Assembly (NCBI RefSeq): GCF_000803645.1
Contig: NZ_CP009122.1
Coordinates: 2,766,501 to 2,830,500 of the forward strand
Direction of reading: 5' to 3'
Origin: Sphingopyxis fribergensis
GTDB taxonomy: Bacteria; Pseudomonadota; Alphaproteobacteria; Sphingomonadales; Sphingomonadaceae
DNA length: 64,000 nt
Positions within the stretch are counted from its first letter, which is position 1, and every line of letters begins with the position of its first letter. A program made the translations under genes and the position numbers. Positions 19,417 to 60,947 of this stretch are shown in pieces. The notes beneath the pieces were generated by a model that was not told where the DNA came from, did no database searches, and saw only the letters and a list, made by a program, of their open reading frames with translations.

Positions 19417-19491
19417 CTTACATTCCTCTCCTTGGATGTCCCGGCCGAGGTTTTCCCCTTCTTCATGCTCGTGGACGTTAGATAAGCTCGA

Positions 19492-20373: not shown

Positions 20374-20418
20374 CTGACACTCCCATCATGATTTCGCATT
20401 GGTGGCCTTTCGGCGCAG

Positions 20419-21483: not shown

Positions 21484-21528
21484 GGCCTCCCGAATGTCTT
21501 GCCGCGGAAAAGGAGCCGAGCGATCGCC

Positions 21529-22404: not shown

Positions 22405-22538
22405 GGAATAACCTCTCCTAAAACGCTGCCGAGTCCATCGCTCGCAGCTGATTTCATTTGTCTCGACTATCGGTAACGCGTAGATGAGAGGGCGCCAATT
22501 AGGCTTTTGTTCCGCAGAGAGTGTCCTCAGGATCAACA

Positions 22539-23450: not shown

Positions 23451-23471
23451 CCGGCCGCCGCGGGGCGTCCT

Positions 23472-24632: not shown

Positions 24633-24654
24633 ATTCCCGATCCCTCGACGGCTG

Positions 24655-25020: not shown

Positions 25021-25057
25021 GGTGATTCACCTTTTTTGAACAACAAGCCGTGCGTGG

Positions 25058-25807: not shown

Positions 25808-25842
25808 CACACTCTCCTCTGCATTATCTTTTTATCGGTCGC

Positions 25843-27051: not shown

Positions 27052-27078
27052 TTTTCGTCCGTCTCGCATGGCAAAGGC

Positions 27079-27822: not shown

Positions 27823-27832
27823 CTGCCGCCCC

Positions 27833-29472: not shown

Positions 29473-29565
29473 AGAATCCCCTGTTGATTGGACGCTCAGT
29501 TTGCGCCGCGAGCACATCGCTGTCTTTGCGTAGGCGGCGGTAAATCTTGTCTTTTCCGGCAGATG

Positions 29566-29602
29566 GCCGCGCCGCCGGACTCCGGATATCCGGCGGCGCG
29601 GC
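29566..29602 (-). terminator. Strong intercistronic hairpin behind the TonB receptor
   Basis: GCCGCGCCGCCGGA pairs perfectly over 14 bp with TCCGGCGGCGCGGC around a 9-base loop. A smaller AGCCC-GAAA-GGGCT hairpin precedes it in the minus direction. It lies between the receptor stop (29623) and the next gene (29472). It may terminate most transcripts, letting the receptor be made in excess over the downstream enzymes. Confidence 0.55.
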
Positions 29603-29622
29603 AGCCCTTTCGGGCTGGGAGG

Positions 29623-46382: not shown

Positions 46383-47150
46383 TCAAAAACTTCCCATCGC
46401 CGACAGATCCCGCGAGGCGCGCCGCAAAGCCGGAAGGAAACGGACGCGCAGATCCGTCGCCGCGATACGGTCGGCCTGCGTCCCGATATTGATCGATGCT
46501 GCCACGCCCTTGCGGCCGAAAACAGGCACCGCCACCGAGCGCAGACCGATTTCGAGTTCCTGATCGACGAGCGCGAACCCCTCTTCCGCGACCCGCGTCA
46601 GGACTGTGTCGAGGCGCCCCCGGTCGGTAATCGTATGCGGCGTGAGCGGGACAAGCCGCGTTCGGCGGAGATAAGCCTCCCTGTCTTCCCGCGAAAGACC
46701 GGCGAGCAGCACCCTCCCCATCGACGTTGCATACAGTGGTAGCCGGCTCCCGGGACGCAGCGCGATGGATATGATCCGCGACGATTCAGCCCGCGCGACA
46801 TAATAGACCTCGTCCTCCTCGATCACCCCTAGTGAGCAGGATTCATGCAGTTCATCGCGCAACTGCTCGAGGATAGGCTGCGCCTTGGCAACGAGAGTGC
46901 TCGAAGAGAGATAGGCGTAACCCAGCGCGAGCGCTTTGGGACGAAGCATATAGTGGGGCCCCTCCTGAACGGCATAACCAAGCTGCGTCAGCGTGTGGAG
47001 GCATCGCCGCACCGAGGCACGACTCAAACCGGTGGCGCCACTCGCCTGCGCGACGGTCATCGGCTTCTGCTGCTCTGCAAAGCAACGGAGCACCGCAAGT
47101 CCCCTGGCGAGCGATTCCATGAAATCCGGGTCTCCCGATCGCTCTGCCAC
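46383..47150 (-). CDS. pcaR: IclR-family regulator, PcaR type
   Basis: A 255-residue regulator with an N-terminal winged HTH (SLARGLAVLRCFAEQQKPMT, GATGLSRASVRRCLHTLTQ) and a C-terminal IclR effector domain (about 80-250, with LYATSMGRVLLAGL). The first block closely matches PcaR/PcaU/PobR regulators of the 3-oxoadipate pathway. It is divergent from pcaIJF across 108 bases that hold a perfect inverted repeat, so it should regulate both sides, probably with 3-oxoadipate as inducer as in Pseudomonas PcaR. The GTG at 47150 gives the longer form; ATG at 47120 is an alternative. Confidence 0.86.
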   Translation of the reverse strand: MAERSGDPDFMESLARGLAVLRCFAEQQKPMTVAQASGATGLSRASVRRCLHTLTQLGYAVQEGPHYMLRPKALALGYAYLSSSTLVAKAQPILEQLRDELHESCSLGVIEEDEVYYVARAESSRIISIALRPGSRLPLYATSMGRVLLAGLSREDREAYLRRTRLVPLTPHTITDRGRLDTVLTRVAEEGFALVDQELEIGLRSVAVPVFGRKGVAASINIGTQADRIAATDLRVRFLPALRRASRDLSAMGSF

Positions 47151-47258: not shown

Positions 47259-47930
47259 ATGATCGACAAGGAAGTCGCCACCGCAGCAGCTGGGGTAGCG
47301 GACATCACAGACGGATCGTCAGTGATGATCGGAGGATTCGGCACGGCCGGTATGCCTGACGATCTGATCGACGCCCTTATCGAACGCGGTGTGAGCGATC
47401 TGACGATCATCAACAACAATGCGGGAAACGGCGAGACCGGCCTCGCAGCCCTGATCCGTGAGGGCCGTGTTCGCAAAGTGATCTGTTCGTTCCCGCGCCA
47501 AGGGGATTCGCATCACTTCGACGCCGCCTACCGCGCGGGACGTCTGGAACTCGAACTCGTCCCCCAAGGCAATCTTGCCGCGCGTATCCACGCTGCGGGC
47601 TCGGGACTAGGCGCGATCTTCACGCCGACAGGATACGGGACCTTGCTTGCCGAGGGCAAGGAAACGCGCGAGATCGACGGACGTCATTATGTACTCGAAT
47701 ATCCCATCCAAGCGGATTTCGCGCTGATCAAGGCCCGTAAGGGGGATCGCTGGGGCAATCTTGTCTATCGCAAGACCGCCCGGAACTTCGGACCGATCAT
47801 GGCCATGGCAGCGAAGACCACGATCGCGCAGGTATCTGAGATCGCACCGCTGGGAACGCTCGATCCTGAAGTCGTGGTCACGCCGGGTATCTTCGTTCAG
47901 CGTGTCGTGTCGATCCCGGCATCGAGTTAA
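47259..47930 (+). CDS. pcaI: 3-oxoadipate CoA-transferase, subunit A
   Basis: A 223-residue alpha subunit that, with the next gene, transfers CoA from succinyl-CoA to 3-oxoadipate. Signatures are SVMIGGFGTAGMPDDLIDAL at the N-terminus (the CoA-binding G-rich loop) and GNLAARIHAAGSGLGAIFTP. ATG at 47259 has GAAGGA upstream. It is separated by 10 bases from subunit B and lies downstream of the PcaR operator. The gene pair and thiolase form the standard pcaIJF order. It could also accept other 3-oxoacids, but context favours 3-oxoadipate. Confidence 0.9.
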   Translation: MIDKEVATAAAGVADITDGSSVMIGGFGTAGMPDDLIDALIERGVSDLTIINNNAGNGETGLAALIREGRVRKVICSFPRQGDSHHFDAAYRAGRLELELVPQGNLAARIHAAGSGLGAIFTPTGYGTLLAEGKETREIDGRHYVLEYPIQADFALIKARKGDRWGNLVYRKTARNFGPIMAMAAKTTIAQVSEIAPLGTLDPEVVVTPGIFVQRVVSIPASS

Positions 47931-47940
47931 GGACGAACCG

Positions 47941-48579
47941 ATGACGAACCCCCTCAGCCGCGACCAGATGGCCGCCCGCGTTGCCCGCGACATCGCCGAC
48001 GGCGCTTATGTGAACCTCGGAATTGGCCTCCCTACGAGGGTCGCCAACTATCTGCCGCAAGACCGCGATATTTTCCTGCAAAGCGAAAACGGCTTGCTCG
48101 GCATGGGGCCGGCGCCGGCGCCGGGCGACGAGGATCCCGAGCTCATCAACGCAGGCAAGCAGCCGGTAACATTGCTATCCGGCGGGTGTTTCTTCCACCA
48201 TGCCGACAGCTTCGCGATGATGCGCGGCGGACATCTCGATGTCTGCGTGCTTGGGGCCTATCAGGTCTCGGTGACGGGCGACCTTGCCAACTGGCATACA
48301 GGCGAGCGCGATGCGATTCCTGCCGTCGGGGGGGCGATGGATCTTGCTATCGGGGCGAAGCAGACCTTTGTCATGATGGACCTGCTCACGAAAACGGGAG
48401 CGAGCAAGCTTGTCGAGGCATGCACCTATCCGCTGACTGGTCTTGGCTGTGTTTCGCGGGTCTATACCGATCTCGCCATTTTTGCCGTGGGACCGTCCGG
48501 CGCAAGCGTGATCGAAACGGTCGACGGCCTCTCGATCGCCGATCTGCGCAAACTGACCGGCCTCGCTTTCGAAAGCTGA
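47941..48579 (+). CDS. pcaJ: 3-oxoadipate CoA-transferase, subunit B
   Basis: A 212-residue beta subunit containing the catalytic glutamate in FLQSENGLLG (Glu49), which forms the glutamyl-CoA intermediate. NLGIGLPTRVANYLP and FFHHADSFAMMRGGHLDV are further family blocks. It completes the CoA-transferase with the upstream subunit and is followed 10 bases later by the thiolase. A broken copy of the same subunit type is present at 38857-39086. Confidence 0.92.
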   Translation: MTNPLSRDQMAARVARDIADGAYVNLGIGLPTRVANYLPQDRDIFLQSENGLLGMGPAPAPGDEDPELINAGKQPVTLLSGGCFFHHADSFAMMRGGHLDVCVLGAYQVSVTGDLANWHTGERDAIPAVGGAMDLAIGAKQTFVMMDLLTKTGASKLVEACTYPLTGLGCVSRVYTDLAIFAVGPSGASVIETVDGLSIADLRKLTGLAFES

Positions 48580-48589
48580 GAAGAAGCCC

Positions 48590-49798
48590 ATGTCCCATGC
48601 CTTTATCTGCGACGCAATCAGAACTCCGATCGGCCGCTACGGAGGCATCCTTGCCGATGTGCGAGCCGACGATCTCGGCGCCCTTCCCATGAAGGCCCTG
48701 CTGGCGCGCAACAGCGAGCTCGATCCCGGCGCGATCGAGGAAGTCTTTTACGGCTGCGCGAACCAGTCGGGCGAGGACAATCGCAACGTCGCGCGCATGA
48801 GCCTGCTCCTTGCCGGACTTCCGGTTTCGGTGCCCGGCGTTACGCTCAACCGGCTGTGCGCATCGGGCCTTGAGGCGGTCGCTGCCGCGGCGCGCACGAT
48901 CCGCTCGGGCGAAATGGATCTGGCCATCGCGGGCGGCGTCGAAAGCATGACGCGCGCGCCCTTTGTGATGGGAAAGTCGAGCAAGCCCTACGGGCGCGCC
49001 CAGATGCTCGAGGACACGACGATGGGATGGCGGTTCGTGAATCCGGCGCTCGATGCGGCCTATGGTTCGGACACAATGCCCCGGACCGGCGAGAATGTGG
49101 CTCGGGAATATGCCGTCGATCGCGACGATCAGGATGCCTTCGCGTTGCGCAGCCAACAGCGCGCGGCAGCGGCGCAGCGAAACGGATTTCATGCCGAGGA
49201 AATCCTGCCGGTGGCTGTTGCGGGCCAATCAAGGGATGAGACGGTCGAAATATCGATCGACGAGCATCCTCGCGCGGACACGAGCATCGACACCCTCGCA
49301 AAGCTCAAGCCGCTGTTTGGCGACGGCGGGAGCGTCACGGCAGGCAATGCGTCGGGGATCAACGACGGCGCGGCGGCGATGATCGTCGCCGGAGAGGCAG
49401 CCATCGGGTTACACCGATTGACACCTCGGGCGCGGATCCTTGGGTTCGCATCGGCCGGGGTCGAACCGCGGGTGATGGGGATCGGTCCCGTACCGGCGAC
49501 CGAGAAGCTCATGGCGCGGCTCGGCTTGTCGATCGATGATTTCGATGCGATCGAGCTCAACGAAGCCTTTGCGAGCCAGAGCCTCGCAGTCCTGCGCAGG
49601 CTCGGCGTTCCCGACGACGCACCGCATGTGAACGCCAACGGCGGAGCCATCGCGCTTGGCCATCCGCTCGGGATGTCGGGTGCACGCCTCGCGATGACGC
49701 TGACCCACCAGCTCGAACGCGAGGGTGGCCGCCTTGGCCTTGCAACGCTTTGTGTCGGCGTCGGGATCGGCGTGGCGCTCGCGATCGAGCGCGTCTAA
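48590..49798 (+). CDS. pcaF: 3-oxoadipyl-CoA thiolase
   Basis: A 402-residue type-II thiolase that splits 3-oxoadipyl-CoA to succinyl-CoA and acetyl-CoA. The acyl-accepting Cys90 is in TLNRLCASGLEAVAAAARTI, and the terminal GGAIALGHPLGMSGAR and LCVGVGIG supply the His and second Cys. The GYGS-like segment and length fit PcaF better than acetoacetyl-CoA thiolases. Last gene of the pcaIJF operon. A hairpin follows before the converging dioxygenase gene. Confidence 0.92.
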   Translation: MSHAFICDAIRTPIGRYGGILADVRADDLGALPMKALLARNSELDPGAIEEVFYGCANQSGEDNRNVARMSLLLAGLPVSVPGVTLNRLCASGLEAVAAAARTIRSGEMDLAIAGGVESMTRAPFVMGKSSKPYGRAQMLEDTTMGWRFVNPALDAAYGSDTMPRTGENVAREYAVDRDDQDAFALRSQQRAAAAQRNGFHAEEILPVAVAGQSRDETVEISIDEHPRADTSIDTLAKLKPLFGDGGSVTAGNASGINDGAAAMIVAGEAAIGLHRLTPRARILGFASAGVEPRVMGIGPVPATEKLMARLGLSIDDFDAIELNEAFASQSLAVLRRLGVPDDAPHVNANGGAIALGHPLGMSGARLAMTLTHQLEREGGRLGLATLCVGVGIGVALAIERV

Positions 49799-49920: not shown

Positions 49921-50871
49921 TTAAACGGAGATCGGTTCTAGGCGACCCAGCAGCTCCTCCTCCCGCTCGCGCAGCCAGGGCGGAAGCTGGAACTCCTCCC
50001 CAAAGTGGCCGGGCTCCTCGTCGATGGCAAAACCGATATCGGTGGTTGCTGCCTCGAACATCACGCCCCCCGGCATCTTAAAATACATCGAACGGAAATA
50101 GTTGCGATTGACCGATTCCGACGCGTCGATATGACCCATCGACATCAACCGCTCCTTGATCCGCATCTGTTCCTCGACATTGTCGACCGCGAAAGCCACA
50201 TGGTGGATCGTGCCTTCCCCATAGATCGACGAGCCCTGCAGGCGGTCCGGCTCATGCTGAAATTCGACCACCAGCCCGGGCGCGCCGTCTCCGACTTCGA
50301 AGCGGTGGAAATCGCCCGACTGGCCCGCGTAGCGAAAGTCGAGGGCATCCTGCATGAAGATGACCGATTCGGCGACCTCGCGCAGCGAGAGGGTGATGCT
50401 GTGCACGCCGCGAATGGCAAATTCGGCGGGAATATCGGCAGCGACGCACGGCATACGCATGTCCCGGTCGGAGGCGACCAAGTCGAATTCGATGCCGCAC
50501 GGATGCTCGAAGCGCAGCCGTTGCTCGCCGAAACGCTCGACCTCAACCTCGGAAAAGACGATGCCGAAATCCTTGAAACGCGCGCGCCAAAAGGCCAGCG
50601 CACCTTGCGGGACCGAGTAGTTTATCACGCGGATCTGGCCGGAGCCGGGCCGCGCCATAACCCCCTTCTGGCGGAAGGGGAAGGACGTCACGAGGGTTCC
50701 TGCATCGCCCTGCGGATTGCCGTAATATAGGTGGTAGATAGGATCCTCGCCGTCGAGGAGAACGGTCTTCTTGACCAGACTTTGCCCGAGGAGCTTCACG
50801 TAGAAGTCCACGTCCTCCTGCGCGTGCCGGACACCCGCCGTCAAATGATGAAATCCCTTGATGATCGACAC
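49921..50871 (-). CDS. PcpA/LinE-type (hydro)quinone ring-cleavage dioxygenase
   Basis: A 316-residue two-domain VOC enzyme. Fe(II) ligands appear as His9 (GFHHLTAG), His224 (TIHHVAFAVDN) and Glu273 (GGVMFEAATT). The blocks LLGQSLVKKTVLLDG, IYHLYYGNPQGDAGTL and RGVHSITLSLREV follow PcpA and LinE, which open (chloro)hydroquinones between C1 and C2 to give maleylacetate or its acyl chloride/semialdehyde. It is a homologue in the wider 'ring-cleaving dioxygenase' (MhqO-like) family, so a non-chlorinated hydroquinone substrate is possible. It converges on pcaF, and two maleylacetate reductases are in the window. Confidence 0.82.
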   Translation of the reverse strand: MSIIKGFHHLTAGVRHAQEDVDFYVKLLGQSLVKKTVLLDGEDPIYHLYYGNPQGDAGTLVTSFPFRQKGVMARPGSGQIRVINYSVPQGALAFWRARFKDFGIVFSEVEVERFGEQRLRFEHPCGIEFDLVASDRDMRMPCVAADIPAEFAIRGVHSITLSLREVAESVIFMQDALDFRYAGQSGDFHRFEVGDGAPGLVVEFQHEPDRLQGSSIYGEGTIHHVAFAVDNVEEQMRIKERLMSMGHIDASESVNRNYFRSMYFKMPGGVMFEAATTDIGFAIDEEPGHFGEEFQLPPWLREREEELLGRLEPISV

Positions 50872-51330
50872 GCTGCTCTCCTTTTACTTCCGGATCGGTG
50901 ATATCTTCCAGCAAGAGCTGTCCCCTGCCCCGCTGGTTGTCAGGCGAAGGGCAGCGACGGAGCTCAAAAGTCATTTCGCGCGGGGGTGCGGGACCGAGAC
51001 GGCCTCCGGCGCCGTCGCCGCGACTGTTGCCGAACGCTAGATTCGATTTCGCAAGAAGAGAAGATGCCCACTCTGCACGCTGGGTTTGGCATTCTTGAAC
51101 GATGTCGGCTCTCCGCGCCAGACGGCGCGAAACGTCCGCCGCCGGGGCGTAACGAAGTATTGCTGATGAGGTTCGCCGGCACCACGGCGCCCGTCCAACG
51201 TCATGGACGCTGCATCCAAGTCCGAGCCTCTTATGTCTCCGGTCGATCAAAGATAGCTCTCAGCCCAAGCGTCCGGTTCGCTTCGCCCCTTTGATTCCGA
51301 ACGCGAACATTCAGCCAGTCGGAGAAAAAT
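50872..51330. other. 459-base intergenic stretch
   Basis: It holds the divergent promoters of the PcpA-like and azoreductase genes. Small arginine-rich frames on both strands look spurious. No clear dyad was recognised. Confidence 0.35.
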
Positions 51331-51969
51331 ATGTCCAAACTACTCGTCATAGAGGTCAGCCCGCGCTTCGAATTCTCGGTGTCGCGGGCGCTTGCGGCCC
51401 GATTTGTCGAAAACTGGAAAGCAGCTCATCCCCAGGGGGAGGTCGTGAGTCGCGATCTCGCAACGATGAATTTGCCTTTCGTCGACTTGCCCTGGATCGG
51501 CGGCGCCTTCTCTCCGCCGGAACAGCATACCGAGGAGCATCTCGACGCGATCAGCCTGTCGAACGAGCTGATCGCGGAACTTCAATCGGCGAGCGATATC
51601 GTCATCGCGACTCCGATGTACAATTTCACCGTCCCCGCGGTCCTCAAGGCCTATGTCGATCAGATCATTCGCCCCGGGGTGACGGTGTCGGCGACCTATG
51701 AGGGCTTGGTGACCGGAAAGACCGCGACAGTCATCGTCGTCACTGGCGGCGATTTCCGGCCGGGCGCTCCCTTCGCCGCAGCGAACGCTGTCGGCCCATA
51801 TCTGCAGCAGGCGCTCGGCTTCATCGGTATAACCGACCTCGACATCGTGCTCGCGTGCCGCACCCGCATGGTGGATGAAGGCGAAGTCACCATCACTGAA
51901 TTCATCGTCGAGCACGAGGAGATGATCGCGGCCGCAGCCGTCCGCAGCTTCTCGCCGGTCGCCGCCTGA
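51331..51969 (+). CDS. FMN-dependent NADH-azoreductase / quinone reductase
   Basis: A 212-residue flavodoxin-fold enzyme of the AzoR family: SPRFEFSVSRALAARFVENW at the phosphate-binding loop, TPMYNFTVPAVLKAYVDQI, and a VVTGGDFRPGAPF FMN loop. Such enzymes reduce azo dyes but more generally quinones by two electrons, preventing redox cycling. Beside a hydroquinone dioxygenase the likely role is to keep the substrate in the hydroquinone state, as PcpD does in another fold. It is divergent from the dioxygenase and converges on a LysR gene. Confidence 0.88.
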   Translation: MSKLLVIEVSPRFEFSVSRALAARFVENWKAAHPQGEVVSRDLATMNLPFVDLPWIGGAFSPPEQHTEEHLDAISLSNELIAELQSASDIVIATPMYNFTVPAVLKAYVDQIIRPGVTVSATYEGLVTGKTATVIVVTGGDFRPGAPFAAANAVGPYLQQALGFIGITDLDIVLACRTRMVDEGEVTITEFIVEHEEMIAAAAVRSFSPVAA

Positions 51970-51977
51970 CGCCAATC

Positions 51978-52005
51978 GTCCGGGCGGACGTCGCTCGGCC
52001 CGGAC
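51978..52005. terminator. Hairpin between converging azoreductase and LysR genes
   Basis: GTCCGGGC and GCCCGGAC form a perfect 8-bp stem in the 61-base gap between two converging genes. No T-run. Confidence 0.42.
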
Positions 52006-52030
52006 CGTGGCACACGCATCGCCCGGCCGT

Positions 52031-52954
52031 TCAGCCCGTCGGCGCTGCCGGGTTGAACGCCGTGATGGTCGGGAGTTCGGAGGCAGCAAAGTCGAGGAGG
52101 GCGCGCACAGCCGGCAGGATACCCCCTCGGTTGGGGACAAGCGTTGAGATCCGGGCGTCCGATGCGATCCAGCCCGGCAGGACCGGCCGGAGCAACCCCG
52201 ACTGCAATTCCGCGCGGCAAATATAACCCGGGAGGGCAGCGATGCCCAGATTAGAGCATGCAGCCTCTTTCAGCGACACCATATTGTTGGTGCGGAAGCG
52301 CGGTTCGATCGAGACCGCTGTTGTCCGCCCGTCGGGATCGCGAAGGTTCCAGACCGCAGCGCCGTCGCGGAGCAGCGACAACGTTCCATGCCGGGTAACA
52401 TCCTCCGGTGTGGTCGGCTCCCCGCTCCGCTGAAGATAGCCGCTGCCGGCGAAGAGATACCAGGGCACATCGGCAACATGGCGCTGAATGAGGGACGAGT
52501 TCTGCAGCGAACCCACATGGCCGCGCAGCGCGATGTCGAAACCGTCAGCGACGATATCGACGAGTTGGTCCGTCGCCACTTCGACGATCTGAACCTTGGG
52601 GTGCCGGTTGAGGAAGGCCGGGATGAGATGGCACAGGGCGAACTGGGATATTTCGATCGCGGTCGTAATTCTGATGACGCCGCTCGGTTCGGTCAGACGC
52701 TGCCCCATCGCTTCCTCGGCGGACTGGGAAACTCGAAGCATCTCCTGCCCGTACCGGTAGAATTCCTGCCCCACCTCGGTCAGCGACAATTGGCGCGATG
52801 TCCTGTTGAGCAGGCGGATATTGAGATAGGCTTCGAGCTCCCTAACCCGATGACTCAACGTCGATTTCGGCAGATGCAGCACGCGCCCGGCCGATGTAAA
52901 ACCGCCGTGATCGACGACCTGGACGAAATAGAAGACATCTTTGAGGTCAAGCAT
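52031..52954 (-). CDS. LysR-family transcriptional regulator
   Basis: A 307-residue LysR protein: FVQVVDHGGFTSAGRVLHLP and STLSHRVRELEAYLN in the HTH, then a ligand domain with VIRITTAIEISQFALCHLIP. It lies between azoreductase and nitroreductase genes and is probably the regulator of the quinone/hydroquinone module, a position comparable to PcpR or LinR. That comparison is by context; sequence alone does not show it. No T-N11-A site was picked out in the gap to the nitroreductase. Confidence 0.88.
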   Translation of the reverse strand: MLDLKDVFYFVQVVDHGGFTSAGRVLHLPKSTLSHRVRELEAYLNIRLLNRTSRQLSLTEVGQEFYRYGQEMLRVSQSAEEAMGQRLTEPSGVIRITTAIEISQFALCHLIPAFLNRHPKVQIVEVATDQLVDIVADGFDIALRGHVGSLQNSSLIQRHVADVPWYLFAGSGYLQRSGEPTTPEDVTRHGTLSLLRDGAAVWNLRDPDGRTTAVSIEPRFRTNNMVSLKEAACSNLGIAALPGYICRAELQSGLLRPVLPGWIASDARISTLVPNRGGILPAVRALLDFAASELPTITAFNPAAPTG

Positions 52955-53278
52955 CGCGTCACCCGGTTCCCGATCCGCCGAGTGGCGATGGCGGATCTCA
53001 TTCTGTCATGGCGCCGGACGGGGATCAGGCAGCTCGCCGCGAGGCAAGCCAAATCGCGCCCTGTTCGCCGTCAGCCTGTCGGCGTCGCCCCGCTCTCCCG
53101 CAGCGGCTGCTTTGCCCGTTCTCCCACGCAACCTGCAAAATGCAAGGTCGATGTCCGTGGAAAGTATAATATGTGGCTGGCGCCAGCTTCCATGACCCCA
53201 CCGAGGGGCCGTCGGCGTCTATTTGCCGACCACGAAACCGACCAGATGATCGGCGATGATCGGCGATAGCTCCGACGC
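52955..53278. other. 324-base stretch without a recognised gene
   Basis: Promoter region of the LysR gene and 3' flank of the nitroreductase. A small tandem of GATCGGCGAT occurs near 53250-53268. No other feature found. Confidence 0.35.
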
Positions 53279-54001
53279 CTAAGAGTCCCTGAAAATGGCG
53301 AAATCGTCGACGTCGAGCTTTGCGAGTTGTATCTGGTTTTGCGGCTGGCGGTCATCCGCCCAGCCGAGCGACATGCCGGCCACCACCATTTCATGTTCCG
53401 GAAGACCGAGTTCCACCTGAAGCAGAGGATGCATCAGCGACCAGATCTGCTGCGCGCACGTGTCAAGCCCCCGCGCACGCGCCGCGATCATGATCGACTG
53501 GAGAAATGTGCCGTAACAGATGAAGCTCGCATAGGCGAGGCGTCGATCCATAGTGAATATCATTCCGATCGGGGCACCGAAAAACTGGAACTGACGCTCA
53601 AGATACCGGTCGCGGCCAACCTTGTCCTCCCGTGCGACACCATAAGCATCGCCCAACGTACCGCCGAAATCATGGCGCCTCGAAAGAAAAGGCTCGTGCA
53701 GTTCGGGCGGGAAATAAGGATATTCCGGGAAAAGATCGTCGCCCTCCTCGCGCCAGCGAGCGACTGCGGCACGGCTCAGGCGCTCGCGCGCGGTACCCGT
53801 CAGGACATAGGTGCGCCAGGGCTGGGTGTTGCTGGAACTCGGCGACCATGCCGCCACAGCCAGGATATCGCGCAGCGTGTTGAGGTCAACCGGCCGGTCG
53901 AGATACCCCCGCTTGGTTCTGCGGCTTGCTATCGCCCGGTCGACGAAATCGACCTGATCAGAACTCCACTCATCATGACGAACTTCCGCGATCATCCCCA
54001 T
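53279..54001 (-). CDS. Nitroreductase family protein
   Basis: A 240-residue FMN-dependent nitroreductase-fold enzyme: AIASRRTKRGYLDRPVD (FMN-phosphate-binding Arg pair), WSPSSSNTQPWRTYVLTG and FLQSIMIAARARGLDTCAQ are the standard blocks; GMSLGWAD comes near the end. It would reduce nitroaromatics or quinones using NAD(P)H. Within this cluster quinone or nitrophenol reduction both fit. It is transcribed away from the operon at 54438. Confidence 0.88.
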   Translation of the reverse strand: MGMIAEVRHDEWSSDQVDFVDRAIASRRTKRGYLDRPVDLNTLRDILAVAAWSPSSSNTQPWRTYVLTGTARERLSRAAVARWREEGDDLFPEYPYFPPELHEPFLSRRHDFGGTLGDAYGVAREDKVGRDRYLERQFQFFGAPIGMIFTMDRRLAYASFICYGTFLQSIMIAARARGLDTCAQQIWSLMHPLLQVELGLPEHEMVVAGMSLGWADDRQPQNQIQLAKLDVDDFAIFRDS

Positions 54002-54437
54002 GTCTCCGATTGCTCCCCGTGATTTTGGAATCGACCGGAAATCCGGCTCAACGATCCGATGACAATGAGGTTACAGGAGGTCCGAGGCGTGAGAAGACCG
54101 CTCGAACAAGACGCATCGTATCAAAAATGCGAACGATCTTGAAGTTTTTGATCGCCGCCCCTGCCGGCACCCGATGTTCCGCTGCGTGGGCGACCGATAT
54201 CGAGACGAACCGGCATTTCACCGAGTTCGCCAGCCATCGTCCAATAACTTGCACGCAAAGTTCGAGTTCGGGGACTTCCGCTGGCTTTCGGCTGGACATA
54301 GCCTGCGTGACGAAACCGGTCGGCGGGGTCGGTTCATCGCGGTTCGACGCGGCAGAAAAGGCGACCCCCGGGCTCAGGCAGCGGCCGGTTTGCGTGCAAG
54401 GGATGTCCGCGCACGCTAGCAGAAACGGAGATTGATC
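54002..54437. other. 436-base region upstream of the reductase-amidase-TDO-like operon
   Basis: Presumably holds divergent promoters. A 102-codon frame from 54127 ends at the ribosome site of the next gene and starts with a hydrophobic stretch, but its later half is unlike a protein; I do not call it. No dyad or remnant was recognised. Confidence 0.35.
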
Positions 54438-55553
54438 ATGGCGCAACTGCTGCCGCTGCCGCAGAATTTGATCGTATGGGGAGAAAATGTGCTGGCGAGT
54501 ACGATTTCGGCGTTCCCTGAGCACGGGATCGAGCGTCCGATCGTCTTCTCGGTAGATTTTCTGGATGCGATGCGCCGCGATCTGGTGGAACCGCATCTGG
54601 TCGGCAGCGTCGGCAACTATTTGAACTTGCCGGCACACGCCCCCGACATCGCGATCGAGGAAAGCCTCGAACGGATCCGGTCGCTGGGCGCACGCTCGAT
54701 CATCGCGCACGGCGGCGGATCAGTCCTCGATGCCGCCAAGGCTGCATCGCATCTCCATCACGAACGCACCGGGACCTTTCTGCCTATCGCCGCCCTGCCC
54801 ACCACCCTCTCGGGATCCGAATTTTCGCACTATTTCGGGATAACCGAGACCAACGGCCCGGTGCGTTTCAAGCGCAGCTACGCCGTCCGGGAAACCGTTC
54901 CAACCATCGTCGTCCTCGATCCGTTGCTGCTGCTCGACACCCCGGTCGAGCTTCTGCTTTCATCGGCCATCAAGGGCATGGATCATGCGGTCGAAGGCAT
55001 GCGAACGGTCGATGTCGATCATCCGCATGCGATCATGGCGGCGAGTGGTCTCAATCAATTTGCCGCCGTTCTCGAAAGATGGCCGCGCGGCTTACCCCCC
55101 CGGCTGGCCATCGAGAGCGGCGCAGTGACCCATCGCGATCTGCTGTCGCTGCAACTCGCGGCCTGGCATTGCTATTTTGCTCCCGCTTCCGTCATCTACG
55201 GTCTCAGTCACCGCATCGGACACATATTGGGCGGAACCTACGGCCTGCCGCATAGCGTCACCTCGTGCATCACGCTCGCCCCGGTCATCCGGGCGTGCGC
55301 CGACCGGTACGGCCCGAAACTCTCGATCTTCGGCGAAAGCAGGATTGCGCCCGCGGCCGCGCAACTCGCGAACCGTATCGAGGGGCTGGTGACCGCGCAG
55401 GGCCTCCCCGACAGGGTCGGTCCGCTGGGTCTCGACCGATCGATCCTCCCTGACGTTCACGATCTTCTGGTGCGCTCCTATCCCGCCGAAGTCGCCGATC
55501 TCGGCGACGCGGCCGAGGCAAAGCTTACCAGCCTGCTGGACAGCCTGTGGTGA
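54438..55553 (+). CDS. Iron-containing alcohol dehydrogenase, maleylacetate-reductase-like
   Basis: A 371-residue iron-ADH-fold enzyme: nucleotide loop IIAHGGGSVLDAAKAA (GGGS at 92-95), ALPTTLSGSEFSHYFGIT, and a C-terminal SHRIGHILGGTYGLPHS metal/substrate segment. These motifs put it near maleylacetate reductases (PcpE/LinF), but it diverges from the clear copy at 20419. ATG at 54438 with GGAG upstream. It overlaps the amidase gene, and the amidase overlaps a TDO-like gene, so all three are made together. It may reduce maleylacetate or an analogue made by that pathway. Confidence 0.8.
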   Translation: MAQLLPLPQNLIVWGENVLASTISAFPEHGIERPIVFSVDFLDAMRRDLVEPHLVGSVGNYLNLPAHAPDIAIEESLERIRSLGARSIIAHGGGSVLDAAKAASHLHHERTGTFLPIAALPTTLSGSEFSHYFGITETNGPVRFKRSYAVRETVPTIVVLDPLLLLDTPVELLLSSAIKGMDHAVEGMRTVDVDHPHAIMAASGLNQFAAVLERWPRGLPPRLAIESGAVTHRDLLSLQLAAWHCYFAPASVIYGLSHRIGHILGGTYGLPHSVTSCITLAPVIRACADRYGPKLSIFGESRIAPAAAQLANRIEGLVTAQGLPDRVGPLGLDRSILPDVHDLLVRSYPAEVADLGDAAEAKLTSLLDSLW

Positions 55554-56932
55554 CCGAACGGACTTCGGGCTGGCTAGCCAAGACATCGCTCGTCGGCCAG
55601 CTCTCTGGGCTCGTCACGGGCGAGGTGACATCGGTCGATCTTGTCACGAAGGCGCTCGTCGACGCGCGAATGTGCCAGACGATATGCAACGCCTTTGCCA
55701 GCATCGCGGAAGAACAGGCGCTCGCGGCGGCCCGGTCGAGCGACACAAAGCGCACGCGGCGAGGCAAGGTCGAGGGGTTGCCCATCCTGCTCAAGGACAA
55801 TATCGATACGCACGACATCGTTACCGCTTATGGGTCGCGGGCCTATCGGAACCATGTTCCTGAGCGCGACGCACCGCTTGTCCGGCGATTGAAGGCCGAA
55901 GGGGGTATCATCCTTGGCAAGACGACGACCCATGAATTTGCGTGGGGCGTAACGACGCAGAGCACCGCATTCGGCATCACGAGAAATCCCCACGACCGGT
56001 CCCGGATACCCGGCGGATCGAGCGGGGGGCTTGCCGCCGCGATCGCATCGGGGGTGGCAGGCGCCGGCATTGGAAGCGATACGGGGGGATCGGTCCGGAT
56101 CCCGGCGGCGCTCTGCGGCGTGGTGGGTTTCAAGCCCAGCGCCGGGCTCTGGCCGCTTGAAGGCTTCTTCCCGCTTGCCGCGACGCTCGATCACCCGGGG
56201 ATCATCGGTGCCAGTGTCGACGATGTAATAGTCCTTGCTTCCGCGTTGGGGCTCGACCTCGCGGAAGATACGGGTGCTCCTCGCGTCGAATATCTCGAGG
56301 ATCTGCCCGGCGCCCCGCTCGACAGCGAGGTCCGGAACCGGGTCAAGGAGGCGATCGACGCCATCGCGATGTCGCTGCCTGTCCAGCTGTCGAACCTCCG
56401 CCCGCTCTTTGCCCATCTCTTTCCGGTTTTTGCAGGCACCGTGCTCGCGGAAGCCGGGATGGTTCATTTTGCCCGTAGCAGCGCAGACACGATCGCATCG
56501 CTCTATGACCCGGATACGCAGTCGAGGCTTGAGCGGTCGCGCCTTACATCGCTAGCCGAATATGAAGCCTGCCAGCAGCAGCGGCGATCTTTCGTACAGG
56601 CGTTCAAAAAGGAGTTCCGATCCGACTTCCTCATTCTCCCGACCTGCATCTGCACGGCGCCCCGCATCGGCGAAGACGAAATTTCAATCGGGAGCTGGGC
56701 GGGAACGGTTCGCGAGGCGCTGATGGCCTATACCTCGCCATTCAACCTGAACGGCTACCCCGCGATCTCACTACCCTTGCCGACGACGGCCGGCTCACTC
56801 CCGGCAGGCATTCAGATCGTCGGACGGCCGGGCGGCGACGGGCATTTGCTCCGCTTCGCGGCCACCGTGGAGGCGATACTCGCCTCCCCACGCCGATCAA
56901 CCTTACCCAGCAAGGAGACCGAATATGGTTAG
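55547..56932 (+). CDS. Amidase (amidase-signature family)
   Basis: A 461-residue serine hydrolase with the Ser-cisSer-Lys triad visible: Lys83 in ILLKDNIDTHD, Ser158/159 in IPGGSSGGLAAA and nucleophile Ser182 in GSDTGGSVRIPAAL. Such enzymes hydrolyse amides, formamides and related C-N bonds. It starts seven bases inside the preceding reductase gene and its stop overlaps the next start by eight bases. Next to a TDO-like ring-opening enzyme, hydrolysis of an N-formyl or anilide intermediate is a sensible hypothesis. Confidence 0.9.
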   Translation: MVTERTSGWLAKTSLVGQLSGLVTGEVTSVDLVTKALVDARMCQTICNAFASIAEEQALAAARSSDTKRTRRGKVEGLPILLKDNIDTHDIVTAYGSRAYRNHVPERDAPLVRRLKAEGGIILGKTTTHEFAWGVTTQSTAFGITRNPHDRSRIPGGSSGGLAAAIASGVAGAGIGSDTGGSVRIPAALCGVVGFKPSAGLWPLEGFFPLAATLDHPGIIGASVDDVIVLASALGLDLAEDTGAPRVEYLEDLPGAPLDSEVRNRVKEAIDAIAMSLPVQLSNLRPLFAHLFPVFAGTVLAEAGMVHFARSSADTIASLYDPDTQSRLERSRLTSLAEYEACQQQRRSFVQAFKKEFRSDFLILPTCICTAPRIGEDEISIGSWAGTVREALMAYTSPFNLNGYPAISLPLPTTAGSLPAGIQIVGRPGGDGHLLRFAATVEAILASPRRSTLPSKETEYG

Positions 56933-57764
56933 CCAAATCGTCGAGAACGACGCGTCGGGTTCGACGCCCTACAGTTCCTATGTACAGACCGAGCAGCTCC
57001 ACAGTCTGCAGGCGCTGGTCAGCGACAGTCCGGTCGAGATGGCCTTCCTTGTCAATGTGCAGATCATGGAGCTCTACTGGGCGCTGACCGTGCACGAGCT
57101 GCAAACCGCGCAGGCCAACCTTTGTGCGGACAATGTCGCGGAAGCCAATCGCACGCTGGCGCGGATCGTCTCGCATATGAAGGCGTCCAACGCGACCTGG
57201 GGATCGCTATCCTGGATGACGCCGTCCGACCTCCTGCCGATCCTCATGGGCCTTGCCGCAACGCACGGCCGAGATACGGCGCTCCAGGGTTGGACCTATC
57301 GGCACATGGTCTATTTGCTCGGTATCAAATCGGCCGAACAGCTCGTCTATTTCGAGCCGCAGCCGATCCGTTACCGGCAGCTCGAAGCCGCCCTCAAGGC
57401 TCCAAGCCTCTACGACGAAGTGCTTCGTGCCCTTCGTCGCTCCGGCGCCGACGTTCCCGAGGCGGCTGCCGAGCGCGACTTCGCCATTCCTTATGAGCCT
57501 TCGGGGGCAGTCGACCGCGTCTGGCTGGACATCTATTCCCGGGACGACCCTGCGGACCCCTGGCGCGCCCTGGCCGAGAACCTCACCGATATCGCCGTGG
57601 AATTCACCAACTGGAAATATCTCCATCTCCTCGCGACGCGGCGCACCTTTGGCCGCCGGCCTGCCTACCACGGCGTCGACGCAGTGGATTGGCTGACGCC
57701 GACCATGGAAGAGATTCCGTTTCCCGAGCTTTGGAACGCGCGCAGTTCGGTTGGCGGGATATGA
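56925..57764 (+). CDS. Tryptophan-2,3-dioxygenase-family heme protein with altered substrate loop
   Basis: A 279-residue all-helical protein aligning with tryptophan 2,3-dioxygenase along its length: YSSYVQTEQLHSLQ, FLVNVQIMELYWALTVHEL, ALQGWTYRHMVYLLG (keeping Arg126, equivalent to the carboxylate-binding Arg) and NWKYLHLLATRRTFG with heme-ligand His234, then IPFPELWNAR. Two differences stand out: Val45 replaces the distal His (His55 in the Xanthomonas enzyme), and the GTGGSSG substrate loop after the heme His is replaced by RRPAYHG. It is therefore unlikely to be a true tryptophan dioxygenase and may act on another indole or aniline-type compound. Confidence 0.8.
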   Translation: MVSQIVENDASGSTPYSSYVQTEQLHSLQALVSDSPVEMAFLVNVQIMELYWALTVHELQTAQANLCADNVAEANRTLARIVSHMKASNATWGSLSWMTPSDLLPILMGLAATHGRDTALQGWTYRHMVYLLGIKSAEQLVYFEPQPIRYRQLEAALKAPSLYDEVLRALRRSGADVPEAAAERDFAIPYEPSGAVDRVWLDIYSRDDPADPWRALAENLTDIAVEFTNWKYLHLLATRRTFGRRPAYHGVDAVDWLTPTMEEIPFPELWNARSSVGGI

Positions 57765-57770
57765 ACCCGA

Positions 57771-58412
57771 TCAGCTGAGCAGCAGCTTCATTTCCGGGTC
57801 CGCCTTTTGCATGGCTGCAATATAGGCGGGTCGGCTGGATATTCGGCCGAGATAAGCGAGGATGCCCGGATAGGGCGCCAGGTCCATGGGAAGAAAATAG
57901 CGCATCGTCGAAAGCGTGAAACCGATCATAACGTCGGCTGCGGTAAACATCTCTCCGGCGAGATAGGGCACGGCGGCCACGCGCTCATCGGTTTGGCGCA
58001 TGGCGATCGCTGTCCGTTCGGAGATCGCGCGCAGCGTCGGATTGTCCGGCGCTACGCGCGCCCGGTTCATCATCATGACGCGCCCGAGCAAGGCTTGGAG
58101 CGTGGCGTTCGAGAAATGATACCAGTAGAGGTAATCGGGAAATTGCGTGTCCGAGACGGACGGCACCAATTTCGCATCCCCGTAGCGCGCCAAAATATAA
58201 TCGATGATCGCACCGGATTCGGCGAGCACCAGATCGCCGTCGGTGATGACGGGCGCGGCGCCCAGCGGGTGCAATGCCTTATACTCGAGCGGAGCGAGCA
58301 TCGTGACGGGGTCGCGCTCATATCGTTCGAGGCGGTAGTCGATACCCAGCTCCTCGCAAAGCCACACAATGCGTTCCGATTGCGACTTTCCGAGGTGATG
58401 AACCGTCAGCAT
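57771..58412 (-). CDS. Glutathione S-transferase
   Basis: A 213-residue GST: N-terminal HHLGKSQSERIVWLCEELG with the catalytic Ser/Tyr region, AAPVITDGDLVLAESGAI (Glu-Ser GSH contact), and a helical C-terminal domain with FTAADVMIGFTLSTM. It resembles GstB/URE2-like bacterial GSTs. It ends seven bases from the converging TDO-like gene. The start at ATG 58412 is set by family alignment. Likely partner of the other two GSTs downstream on the same strand; specificity unknown. Confidence 0.87.
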   Translation of the reverse strand: MLTVHHLGKSQSERIVWLCEELGIDYRLERYERDPVTMLAPLEYKALHPLGAAPVITDGDLVLAESGAIIDYILARYGDAKLVPSVSDTQFPDYLYWYHFSNATLQALLGRVMMMNRARVAPDNPTLRAISERTAIAMRQTDERVAAVPYLAGEMFTAADVMIGFTLSTMRYFLPMDLAPYPGILAYLGRISSRPAYIAAMQKADPEMKLLLS

Positions 58413-58612
58413 CAGCGCAACTCCGTTTCGCCATGTTCGCGGTGCCCTGCCCCACGCACACACCGCCGGTCGACATGATAGCCGCGTGTCCGGCCAATGG
58501 AACAACCAAAATGGATCAATTCATCGGGAACGGGAACCGCCGGCGCGGCTCCGGAGACAGGCAGCCCGGTCATGCCACCGCAAGCGGTTGCCGGAATGCC
58601 CGGCGGCGCGGG

Positions 58613-59539
58613 TCATTGGCGCGGCACCGGACCTCGGGGTACGATGCCCGACGGATTGATGTTCCGCTGGCTGTTATAATAATGATGTTTGATGTGATGC
58701 ATGTCGATCGTGGGCGCGATTTCCTCGATCGACGCGATTCTACGCGTATAGGCGCTGAGATGCGGATAATCCTCGATCCGGCGCAGGTTGCACTTGAAAT
58801 GCCCGTGGTACACCGCGTCGAACCGGATCAAGGTCGTGAACAGGCGGATGTCGGCTTCAGTGAACCGGTCCCCGACCAGCCAGCCCTGCCTGCTTAACCG
58901 GTCCTCCAACCAGTCCAGACTTTCGAACAGCGGCCCTACGGCCTCGTCATAGGCCTGCTGGGTCGTAGCAAATCCCGCTCTGTAAACGCCATTGTTGACG
59001 GTCGGATAAATACGAGCGTTCAGCGCATCGATTTCCGTACGGAGCTCAGCGGGGTAATAGTCTCCGGATTTGGCGCCGAGGTCGTCAAATGCGTCGTTCA
59101 GCATCCGCAGTATTTCGGAAGATTCATTGTTGACGATTGTCCGTGTGTGCTTGTCCCAGAGCACCGGCACGGTCACCTTCCCCGTATAGGTCGGGAGCGC
59201 GCGCGTATAGATTTCGTGCAGGAAAGAAGCCCCCTCGGGATCCGGGATCACACCCCCACCGGGTTCGAAGCTCCAACCTCCGTCGAGCATCAGCCAGTTC
59301 ACGATCGAAATCGGAAGCAGTTCGTCGAGCCCCTTTAGCGCCCTCATAATCAGCACGCGATGCGCCCATGGACAAGCAAGGCTGACATAGAGATGATATC
59401 GATCGTCGGCGGCCGCAAAACGGCCGGACACGCGCGTAACCGAATCGCGGAAGAGCGATTCCGATCTGCGGAAAGTGCCATCGCCGACACCATCTCCGCG
59501 GGCATCGCAAGACCATCGGCCGCCAACCAGCATTCCCAT
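58613..59539 (-). CDS. Glutathionyl-hydroquinone reductase (PcpF/LinG/YqjG type)
   Basis: A 308-residue Xi-class GST. The defining motif is YVSLACPWAHRVLIMRALKG with catalytic Cys56, followed by PVLWDKHTRTIVNNESSEI and ALNARIYPTVNNGVYRAGF, all standard in GS-hydroquinone reductases. These enzymes remove glutathione from glutathionyl-(chloro)hydroquinones, rescuing the by-product of enzymes such as PcpC. Having it next to a LinD/PcpC-like gene and a PcpA-like dioxygenase repeats the pcp/lin logic. Most bacteria keep one housekeeping copy, so location is the argument for a catabolic role. Confidence 0.9.
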   Translation of the reverse strand: MGMLVGGRWSCDARGDGVGDGTFRRSESLFRDSVTRVSGRFAAADDRYHLYVSLACPWAHRVLIMRALKGLDELLPISIVNWLMLDGGWSFEPGGGVIPDPEGASFLHEIYTRALPTYTGKVTVPVLWDKHTRTIVNNESSEILRMLNDAFDDLGAKSGDYYPAELRTEIDALNARIYPTVNNGVYRAGFATTQQAYDEAVGPLFESLDWLEDRLSRQGWLVGDRFTEADIRLFTTLIRFDAVYHGHFKCNLRRIEDYPHLSAYTRRIASIEEIAPTIDMHHIKHHYYNSQRNINPSGIVPRGPVPRQ

Positions 59540-59615
59540 CTGCCTCTCCCGTCACTCCGGTATCTGCATAGATACTGACACCGCCGCGAGCCGGTCGGGC
59601 CCCTTCGGCGCCGCC

Positions 59616-60677
59616 TCAGTTCGCCACCGCGGCCTCCAGCCGCGCAAGATAGATCGACGGAGGCAGGCTCCGTTCGGACGCACCGATCGCTTCCCGCCGC
59701 AAGGAAGGTCGGTCTTTTAGCGCCGCGAAATATCTGGCGACGTTCCGATGATCGTCCCACAGCGATCCAAGACCGAGATAGGCGAGCCTGACGAGGTTCA
59801 CGCCCCAGAAAATGTCGGCGAGTGTGACGTCGCCCCCATTTGCATAAGGAAGTGAACCGGCAGCGACATCGGCATCAAGATGGTGCAGAAGGTCCGCGGC
59901 TCGGCCGCGCGTGGCGCGCTGGAAATCGGGATCGCGCGACACGGCTTTGCCCCCCGTCTCCTTGGCGATCTTCGCGCGATAGGCTCTGACCAGATCGGCA
60001 TCGTCGGCGTTCTCGGCGATCATTTTTTCAAGCACCATGACTTTGAGGTCATAGACCGTCCCCATCATGTCCTTCATCTCGTCGGGGCGCAGGTCGGTAT
60101 CGGGATGGAATCCATAAAGAAGCGCACCATTCGGAATCTTGTCGACGATCGACATCTGCCGCAGCACTTCGGTCAGTGCTGCGGTTCCCGTTGGCAAGAG
60201 GTTGCCGGCGGCACCCTGCACTTCTGAAAGATACAAGCAGATGCGCTTGGAATCTGCGATCACGAGGCCCGCCTCATAGTCGATCAGGAGAGGCACGACG
60301 CAAGGATCGAAGCCTTCCGACGCGACGGAGGTTACGCCGCTATAACCGCTCACCAATTTCCCGCCGGCGTCGCCGGCGCCCAGCATTCTCAGGCGCACAT
60401 AGGACGGGTCGTAATGTTCGGCCGGAATCAGGCGCGAGCCGTCCATATGCGAGAGGATGAGCATGTCGTTCGAACGATAGGAAAGGCCGGTCTCGAACAG
60501 GACGGCACGGACTTTTTGCGAGCAAAGCGAACTCGCGGCGTGGAAGAGCTCGAACCGGGGCTGGCGATCGTCGCCGACAAGCGTGATCCGTTCGGGATCC
60601 ACGATATTCGATCGCGCTGCCGCCACCATGTCAGCCAGCAGGAATTCGTTTTCCACCGTTGTCTCCACTTCCATCAT
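59616..60677 (-). CDS. LinD/PcpC-like glutathione-dependent (chloro)hydroquinone reductive dechlorinase homologue
   Basis: About 353 residues (LinD is about 346). The thioredoxin-fold start FELFHAASSLCSQKVRAVLF holds Ser and Cys in the S-x-C arrangement of PcpC Ser11/Cys13. It continues SNDMLILS, YVRLRMLG, SEGFDPCVVPLLIDYEAG and IADSKRICLYL, block for block like LinD (2,5-dichlorohydroquinone reductive dechlorinase of lindane degraders) as I recall it. The helical domain has DVTLADIFWGVNLVRLAYLG. The reaction would be GSH-dependent removal of halide from a hydroquinone, though a GSH-dependent isomerase or lyase is possible. The start is uncertain: ATG 60677/60674, or GTG 60764. Confidence 0.83.
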   Translation of the reverse strand: MMEVETTVENEFLLADMVAAARSNIVDPERITLVGDDRQPRFELFHAASSLCSQKVRAVLFETGLSYRSNDMLILSHMDGSRLIPAEHYDPSYVRLRMLGAGDAGGKLVSGYSGVTSVASEGFDPCVVPLLIDYEAGLVIADSKRICLYLSEVQGAAGNLLPTGTAALTEVLRQMSIVDKIPNGALLYGFHPDTDLRPDEMKDMMGTVYDLKVMVLEKMIAENADDADLVRAYRAKIAKETGGKAVSRDPDFQRATRGRAADLLHHLDADVAAGSLPYANGGDVTLADIFWGVNLVRLAYLGLGSLWDDHRNVARYFAALKDRPSLRREAIGASERSLPPSIYLARLEAAVAN

Positions 60678-60947
60678 CTGACGGACACAAGCCGGATCGC
60701 CGGACCGAAACTCGTCTTCAACGCTGCCGATCGCAGGATATGTTCGCCAGTTCCCGGCGACCACGTCAGCGATATGGATGCCCGTCCCGCTTGAATAGAC
60801 GCAACTATTCGGACGCTAGGTTCGAAACCCTTGGACGACGCGACAGCGACGCATTCGGACGCGGCGCGATCGATGGACGCCTTCGCCCCGTTGCAAACGC
60901 GTGGCGCACCGCCCCACCCGCTCCTTTCGTCCATGTGACACCGCGAG

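Follow-up and report, generated by a model that had tools for sequence, protein, structure and literature searches.

A predicted mnp-type catabolic module of Sphingopyxis fribergensis with a tryptophan 2,3-dioxygenase-like gene as a likely core member

The gene cluster considered here lies in a 64,000-nucleotide stretch of the Sphingopyxis fribergensis genome (NZ_CP009122.1, positions 2,766,501 to 2,830,500; hereafter the window), part of a 4.99-Mb contig in a genome of 5.2 Mb, and resembles several described systems for the breakdown of substituted hydroquinones. The pcp pathway comprises PcpC, PcpF, PcpA and PcpE, of which PcpF repairs glutathione conjugates arising from PcpC. The lin lower pathway of Sphingobium indicum UT26 includes LinD and LinE, and Ser-x-Cys is the active-site motif of the LinD/PcpC reductive dehalogenases. 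Closest to the window is the mnp cluster of Cupriavidus pinatubonensis JMP134 and Cupriavidus sp. CNP-8, associated with meta-nitrophenol and 2-chloro-5-nitrophenol. In CNP-8 it encodes the nitroreductase MnpA, the aminohydroquinone dioxygenase MnpC, the LinD-like MnpD, the amidase MnpE, the maleylacetate reductase MnpF and MnpR; in the available part of the paper, this set is described without a gene resembling tryptophan 2,3-dioxygenase (TDO) (PMC5604080).

The window very likely carries a chromosomal catabolic module of the mnp type with a TDO-like gene as a core member, a judgement that covers both parts jointly and leaves aside the step proposed below for the TDO-like protein. The new part is this gene within an otherwise known pathway. 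Our literature search returned a single paper describing the gene set, that on CNP-8 (PMC5604080), whose accessible text never uses the word "tryptophan"; the TDO-like gene could be described in Yin 2010, Yin and Zhou 2010, Schenzle 1999 or Perez-Pantoja 2008. The accessible part of PMC4636328 contains nothing on this cluster.

Gene content compared with the mnp, lin and pcp systems

A first-pass annotation had described the locus as a combination of lin-like and pcp-like enzymes forming a complete route from a (halo)hydroquinone to 3-oxoadipate. All genes that it listed are intact open reading frames (ORFs), and its individual assignments are borne out: a PcpA/LinE-type dioxygenase, a quinone-reducing azoreductase, a LysR gene, a maleylacetate-reductase-like enzyme, an S-glutathionyl-hydroquinone reductase and a LinD/PcpC-like protein, with pcaIJF next door (47259-49798). 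Its list did not have the nitroreductase, the amidase, the TDO-like protein and the glutathione S-transferase (GST) encoded at 57771-58505. Nitroreductase, LinE-like dioxygenase, LinD-like GST, amidase, maleylacetate reductase and LysR regulator all occur together, and by homology the module holds MnpA-, MnpC-, MnpD-, MnpE-, MnpF- and MnpR-type genes plus a quinone reductase, with pcaIJF adjoining. Judged from these similarities, the module corresponds to the mnp (meta-nitrophenol/aminohydroquinone) cluster known from Cupriavidus and is not a lin or pcp variant.

Proteins of C. pinatubonensis HN-2, which stand in for the characterised MnpA and MnpC of JMP134 and CNP-8, are 47-79% identical to their window counterparts (61% for the MnpA type, 79% for the MnpC type). 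Plasmid p2 of HN-2 is annotated in the order GST, TDO family protein, amidase, iron alcohol dehydrogenase, LysR, nitroreductase, ring-cleaving dioxygenase and wrbA. The gene set is that of the window cluster, TDO-like gene included, whereas the order differs; in the window an AzoR-type gene replaces wrbA, an extra GST and the S-glutathionyl-hydroquinone reductase are present, and pcaIJF and a TonB receptor lie alongside. In JMP134, according to the accessible text, a GST-type reductive dehalogenase bears the tag Reut_C5979 and a nitroreductase the tag Reut_C5984 (PMC2842291); this spacing fits six consecutive genes, GST to nitroreductase, in the HN-2 order. Plasmid records extend the comparison: three of Cupriavidus and one of Variovorax encode relatives of the dioxygenase at 77-83%, of the LinD-like protein at 58-60% and of the TDO-like protein at 55-57% identity, and in nine records of Sinorhizobium medicae, one of Ensifer and two of Rhizobium the LinD-like and TDO-like proteins are 43-46% and 62-65% identical, respectively.

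The closest solved relative of the dioxygenase is 4huz, a 2,6-dichloro-p-hydroquinone 1,2-dioxygenase that we take to be PcpA (E 4e-73, aligned over the full length). The protein has a PcpA-like two-domain VOC sequence, and His9, His224 and Glu273, already pointed out in the first-pass annotation, are all present, presumably as the iron ligands of a His-His-Glu site. Its identity reaches 79% with the mnp-type enzyme of HN-2 but only 40% with LinE, and in the tree it lies within the mnp-type proteins (support 99/98), separate from the LinE clade (100/99); the rows of the S. medicae VOC protein, Agrobacterium and Rhodococcus sit on very long branches and were left uninterpreted. Similarly, the LinD-like protein shares 59% identity with its HN-2 homologue versus 39% with LinD of UT26, while keeping an S-x-C-S motif with Cys81 when aligned with LinD. 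The published values for MnpC and LinE (42%) and for MnpD and LinD (40%), taken from the accessible text, stand beside these figures (PMC5604080). Both proteins fall inside another described group, the mnp type, an outcome that the first-pass annotation had itself named as contrary to its lin-like and pcp-like combination, and that combination is abandoned here. Nitroreductase, amidase and TDO-like genes are not among the annotations of the 13-kb linD/linE stretch of UT26.

The sole echo of the pcp system is the LinD-like gene beside a PcpF-like S-glutathionyl-hydroquinone reductase. The latter matches 4fqu (E 3e-124) and YqjG (3r3e, E 3e-101), contains the catalytic Cys56 and is separated from the LinD-like gene by 77 bases. 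At 30% identity over half the length and E 1e-10, it is unmatched in the 56 other mnp-type loci described below, and by this comparison its place beside the LinD-like gene is an addition peculiar to the window's cluster. It would presumably serve to repair glutathione adducts, in the way that PcpF does for PcpC. The pcp system differs otherwise: the module is without an FAD monooxygenase, one of the FAD_binding_3 type being about 23 kb off at 25843-27069, and the nitroreductase, amidase and TDO-like genes are extras of the window module.

The TDO-like protein and its association with the cluster

The TDO-like protein scores below the curated cut-off of the tryptophan 2,3-dioxygenase model TIGR03036 (217.4 against 390.7 bits). 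A helical fold of the TDO type is predicted, and the Foldseek and VIA lists gave TDO, MarE and IDO. The heme-ligand histidine (His234 in the window protein) is kept in 57 of the 59 subfamily rows. In contrast, the distal, indole-binding histidine gives way to V, A or T in all 59, the carboxylate-binding arginine occurs in none, and both substrate loops are replaced. Histidine and arginine are both present in each of seven comparison TDOs, of which four are annotated kynA, one is the kynA of the window's genome (by context) and two come from unannotated records (L069, L070). Since the residues that hold tryptophan are replaced, the subfamily very probably does not consist of tryptophan dioxygenases, and the name "tryptophan 2,3-dioxygenase", given by the sequence sources to many of the 120 listed relatives, is very probably wrong. 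From its predicted fold and histidyl ligand we place the protein, with a putative heme, in the superfamily of heme-dependent aromatic oxygenases, from whose members TDO and MarE it differs in the distal histidine, the arginine, both loops and the pathway context. Carriers belong to the Alpha-, Beta- and Gammaproteobacteria and the Acidobacteriota. Second TDO-like copies in Variovorax (L025:16325-17116; L040), downstream of a maleylacetate reductase gene, are without the heme-ligand histidine.

Retention of the TDO-like gene was followed in 60 Cupriavidus and 101 Variovorax genomes, with thresholds of E 1e-120 for MnpC and 1e-60 for the TDO-like protein. In Cupriavidus, MnpC was found in 23 genomes and the TDO-like gene in 24, all 23 MnpC genomes having both; in Variovorax the two occur in the same 19 genomes. 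The TDO-like gene thus accompanies MnpC in 42 of 42 genomes and is present in one of the 119 others (Fisher 1e-15 and 6e-21). The exception is a Cupriavidus genome (G257) without MnpC, in which LinD occurs with partial matches to the TDO-like gene and the nitroreductase. In the 23 Cupriavidus genomes, 1.9 to 7.1 kb separate the starts of MnpC and the TDO-like gene; one of them (G012) contains an additional pair spaced by 216 kb. LinD was unmatched at E 1e-60 in three of these 23 (G239, G247, G258). A nitroreductase of at least 56% identity is present in all 23 and one of 58-64% in 18 of the 19 Variovorax genomes, the best match in the remaining one (G286, by coordinates the same as locus L043) being only 35%. 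At the locus of the latter are amidase, TDO-like, MnpC, WrbA-like, LysR and reductase genes; nitroreductase and LinD are missing there. The TDO-like gene is thus retained in genomes that lack LinD or the nitroreductase.

A pattern-based scan of genome contigs yielded 54 TDO-like loci from Rhizobiaceae, Phyllobacteriaceae, Burkholderiaceae, Comamonadaceae, Oxalobacteraceae, Pseudomonadaceae and Acidobacteriota. Locus counts refer to 56 loci, namely 53 of the 54 and L001-L003, with C. necator A5-1 contributing two; L055 (the same place as L001), L004, L005 and L071-L073 (the window's own genome) were dropped. Near the TDO-like gene are a LysR gene in 49, a nitroreductase in 49, the reductase in 47, a LinD-like gene in 47, an amidase in 46 and MnpC in 41 loci, and nitroreductase, reductase, amidase and LysR are all present in 44. 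Because these loci were found via the TDO-like gene, they do not test its retention, which the genus-wide searches do. A search for conserved neighbours beyond the known genes gave, by eye, a WrbA-like reductase in 24 loci, a GST-like family in 16 and scattered others. These counts are lower bounds, as the greedy ORF calling detected even the TDO-like gene in just 38 loci, and many of the other clusters look like antisense artefacts.

Proposed pathway and competing explanations

Of the route to 3-oxoadipate first put forward, the outline stands (ring cleavage, maleylacetate, 3-oxoadipate, pcaIJF), whereas halohydroquinone as the main substrate does not, since the presence of a nitroreductase and an amidase suggests an amino-substituted hydroquinone instead. 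Following the published mnp pathway, aminohydroquinone from a nitro- or aminophenol would be the entry compound. The MnpC-type dioxygenase would cut it between C1 and C2 to an amide acid; for MnpC itself, the product proposed in the part of the paper at hand is 6-amino-4-hydroxy-6-oxohexa-2,4-dienoate (PMC5604080). An amide product would explain the amidase in the cluster, which would free ammonia to give maleylacetate, and maleylacetate in turn would explain the reductase, which would form 3-oxoadipate, with PcaIJ and PcaF beside the cluster completing its breakdown. The LinD-like GST would remove a ring substituent or isomerise an intermediate. According to the same partial source, MnpD was suggested to dechlorinate 2-amino-5-chlorohydroquinone and could not be purified (PMC5604080).

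Every cluster enzyme except the TDO-like one can be given a step in this pathway. In the published account, as far as available, it is step two, the formation of aminohydroquinone, that has no enzyme inside the cluster, mnpB lying on another contig (PMC5604080). No dedicated glutamine-synthetase-like mutase was found among the window genes scanned, and in the window's genome the GlnA model gave one GlnA above its cut-off and two weaker glutamine-synthetase-like genes, all more than 750 kb from the window. We tentatively hypothesize, at somewhat less than even chances, that the TDO-like subfamily represents an overlooked aminohydroquinone-forming enzyme that feeds mnp ring cleavage, either by para-hydroxylation of an aminophenol or by rearrangement of a hydroxylaminophenol. 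The specific version, in which O2-dependent para-hydroxylation of an aminophenol would supply aminohydroquinone, is put forward a shade more cautiously. The genome that has no close nitroreductase speaks for an amino substrate over a hydroxylamino one; this, together with the single-oxygen transfers reported for the relatives MarE, SfmD and TyrH in the accessible part of PMC12633357, favours para-hydroxylation.

Rearrangement by the TDO-like protein as a heme-dependent hydroxylaminophenol mutase, in which ferric heme would bind the hydroxylamine nitrogen, the N-O bond would break and water would add para without O2, seems improbable. The vacancy within the published cluster, as the available text describes it, would suit this enzyme (PMC5604080). 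The heme ligand is retained, the changed distal position would leave a hydrophobic pocket, and a close nitroreductase accompanies the TDO-like gene in 18 of the 19 Variovorax genomes; the one with a nitroreductase of 35% at best, however, would have no obvious source of the hydroxylamine. A different mutase, the glutamine-synthetase-like and colourless MnpB, is already known, and we know of no TDO relative for such chemistry.

It is likewise unlikely that the TDO-like protein opens an indole-like substrate upstream while the amidase removes an acyl group, with an N-heterocycle as the true substrate. The predicted fold and the overlapping amidase and TDO-like ORFs of the window would accord with this, yet the two genes are separated in many loci, the residues matching the indole-binding histidine and carboxylate-binding arginine are missing from every row, and the amidase would already have a role if MnpC makes an amide. 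A lin/pcp-like halohydroquinone lower pathway, with LinD-like dehalogenation, LinE-like cleavage and maleylacetate reductase, is quite improbable: it leaves the nitroreductase, amidase and TDO-like genes without a place, the identities to LinD and LinE are just 39-40% with the dioxygenase in a separate clade, and the LinD-like gene was not found in three of 23 Cupriavidus MnpC genomes. Features that agree with it are the S-x-C-S motif, the neighbouring PcpF-like reductase and the degradation of hydroquinone and chlorohydroquinone by MnpC, as reported in the part of the source available (PMC5604080). Equally doubtful is a module for plant benzoxazolinone and 2-aminophenol, in which an MBL lactonase (45112-46026) would open the ring and the TDO-like protein would hydroxylate 2-aminophenol. 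The MBL protein is AidB-lactonase-like at 133 bits, seven loci (L003, L006, L010, L029, L040, L048, L052) have homologues at 54-71% close to the TDO-like gene, many carriers are rhizobia or root bacteria by record titles, and MBOA is converted via an aminophenol by BxdA, a lactonase assigned by annotation to the N-acyl homoserine lactonase family, according to the accessible text (PMC11297187). The score of the MBL protein is nevertheless far under the NCBIfam cut-off of 360, and 853 plasmid records match this very common family.

Several candidate functions were set aside: a benzoxazinoid lactonase, the MBL family being too common to carry weight; the isoflavone catabolism cluster of Variovorax (carriers legume-associated), as gene content pointed elsewhere; and auxin (iad) degradation, whose oxygenase is of the Rieske type and not a TDO in the part of the source at hand (PMC12633357).

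Several points weigh against the mnp identity, the core membership of the TDO-like gene or the step proposed for its product. JMP134 and CNP-8 have the 3-hydroxylaminophenol mutase MnpB for this step, coded elsewhere according to the available text (PMC5604080), so that the TDO-like protein need not perform it. In twelve of the 56 loci the set of nitroreductase, reductase, amidase and LysR near the TDO-like gene is incomplete; four of the loci (L007, L010, L024, L029) keep only the TDO-like and LinD-like genes, although some incomplete loci are at contig ends, and in two acidobacterial loci the TDO-like gene stands alone among the tested genes. At E 1e-40 no MnpC relative was found in a Paraburkholderia genome (L028), whose contig ends just past the TDO-like gene. 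Because members of a genus are related by descent, the Fisher values make the association look stronger than it is. In the one genome that has no close nitroreductase, the cluster may be decaying. Gene content, locus-tag spacing and published LinD/LinE identities form the link to the characterised Mnp enzymes.

Should the TDO-like protein indeed act in the pathway, the mnp scheme as now accepted is incomplete, and a heme fold so far associated with tryptophan gains a role in amino- and nitro-aromatic degradation; we know of no other member of the superfamily in amino- or nitrophenol breakdown. To our knowledge, the mnp-type pathway is otherwise known from pollutants only, and its spread among rhizobia and root bacteria suggests a natural, plant- or soil-derived substrate. 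The role of the TDO-like protein can be probed in a laboratory strain already growing on 3-nitrophenol.

Layout, surroundings and origin of the module

The module and its neighbours span 46.4-60.8 kb of the window.

Table 1. Genes of the module and its immediate neighbours, in window coordinates
Feature	Position	Strand	Basis
PcaR/PcaU-type IclR regulator	46383..47150	-	TIGR02431, 303.6 bits (cut-off 284.75)
pcaI, 3-oxoacid CoA-transferase subunit A	47259..47930	+	TIGR02429, above curated cut-off; start codon picked by eye
pcaJ, 3-oxoacid CoA-transferase subunit B	47941..48579	+	TIGR02428, above curated cut-off; start codon picked by eye
pcaF, 3-oxoadipyl-CoA thiolase	48590..49798	+	TIGR02430, above curated NCBIfam cut-off
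MnpC-type (amino)hydroquinone 1,2-dioxygenase	49921..50871	-	79% to HN-2 MnpC-type protein; PDB match; ligands; tree
AzoR-type quinone reductase	51331..51969	+	Flavodoxin_2, FMN-dependent azoreductase type, below NCBIfam cut-off
MnpR-type LysR regulator	52031..52954	-	LysR family; 63% to HN-2 homologue
MnpA-type nitroreductase	53279..54001	-	PF00881; 61% to HN-2 homologue
MnpF-type maleylacetate reductase	54432..55553	+	Iron alcohol dehydrogenase type; 60% to HN-2 homologue; PDB matches
MnpE-type amidase	55547..56932	+	PF01425; LLKD, GGSSGG and TGGS motifs; 47% to HN-2 homologue
TDO-like protein (putative heme)	56925..57764	+	TDO relative
GST	57771..58505	-	GST_N
S-glutathionyl-hydroquinone reductase (PcpF/YqjG/Xi type)	58613..59539	-	PDB matches; Cys56
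MnpD-type (LinD/PcpC-like) GST	59616..60764	-	59% to HN-2 homologue, 39% to LinD; S-x-C-S motif

The amidase ORF overlaps those of the maleylacetate reductase and the TDO-like protein by 7 and 8 bases, which, with putative starts, probably makes the three genes one operon. The top PDB match of the reductase is 9ph0 (MAR1), with 3w5s and 3hl0, maleylacetate reductase, also found. The AzoR-type reductase may stand in for the WrbA-type reductase found in other clusters of the mnp type, a family named by eye (annotated wrbA in HN-2) and present in at least 24 loci. The GST at 57771-58505 is unmatched in the 56 loci at the limits used for the S-glutathionyl-hydroquinone reductase, and the real start of the LinD-like GST is probably further in than the called ORF start.

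The TDO-like gene (E 1e-60) occurs in no other of 199 sampled genomes of the window's own family, so that the module was probably acquired; by its identities it looks mosaic. The window was compared with nine rhizobial and 15 hand-picked beta- and gammaproteobacterial loci; L014 and L059, alphaproteobacterial loci that branch elsewhere in the TDO tree, were omitted. The TDO-like protein is closer to the rhizobial proteins (mean 64% versus 57%), whereas LinD (60% versus 46%), the nitroreductase (60% versus 56%) and the reductase (63% versus 58%) are nearer those of the beta/gamma loci, and the amidase is nearly equal (49% versus 47%). MnpC orthologues were found only with beta/gamma loci. Among 17 genomes searched, the 13 outside Cupriavidus, Variovorax and Pseudomonas have MnpC relatives of at most 38% (11) or none at E 1e-40 (L028 and L054). 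On S. medicae pSymA, a 387-aa VOC protein (L002:3253-4416) lies beside a maleylacetate reductase, with no MnpC orthologue found there; it may be a different ring-cleaving enzyme. In Edaphobacter and an acidobacterial metagenome-assembled genome (L031, L054), the TDO-like gene, without other tested genes within 10 kb, adjoins a cysteine-hydrolase-like ORF and, in L054, is preceded by what by eye appears to be a C-terminal remnant of an amidase.

Elsewhere in the window (18373-32115) lies a second aromatic lower pathway, with an intradiol dioxygenase of the hydroxyquinol/catechol type (19492-20373), a maleylacetate-reductase-like iron alcohol dehydrogenase (20419-21483), the FAD monooxygenase mentioned above, an SDR, an epoxide hydrolase and a TonB receptor. 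The two routes to maleylacetate may share pcaIJF.

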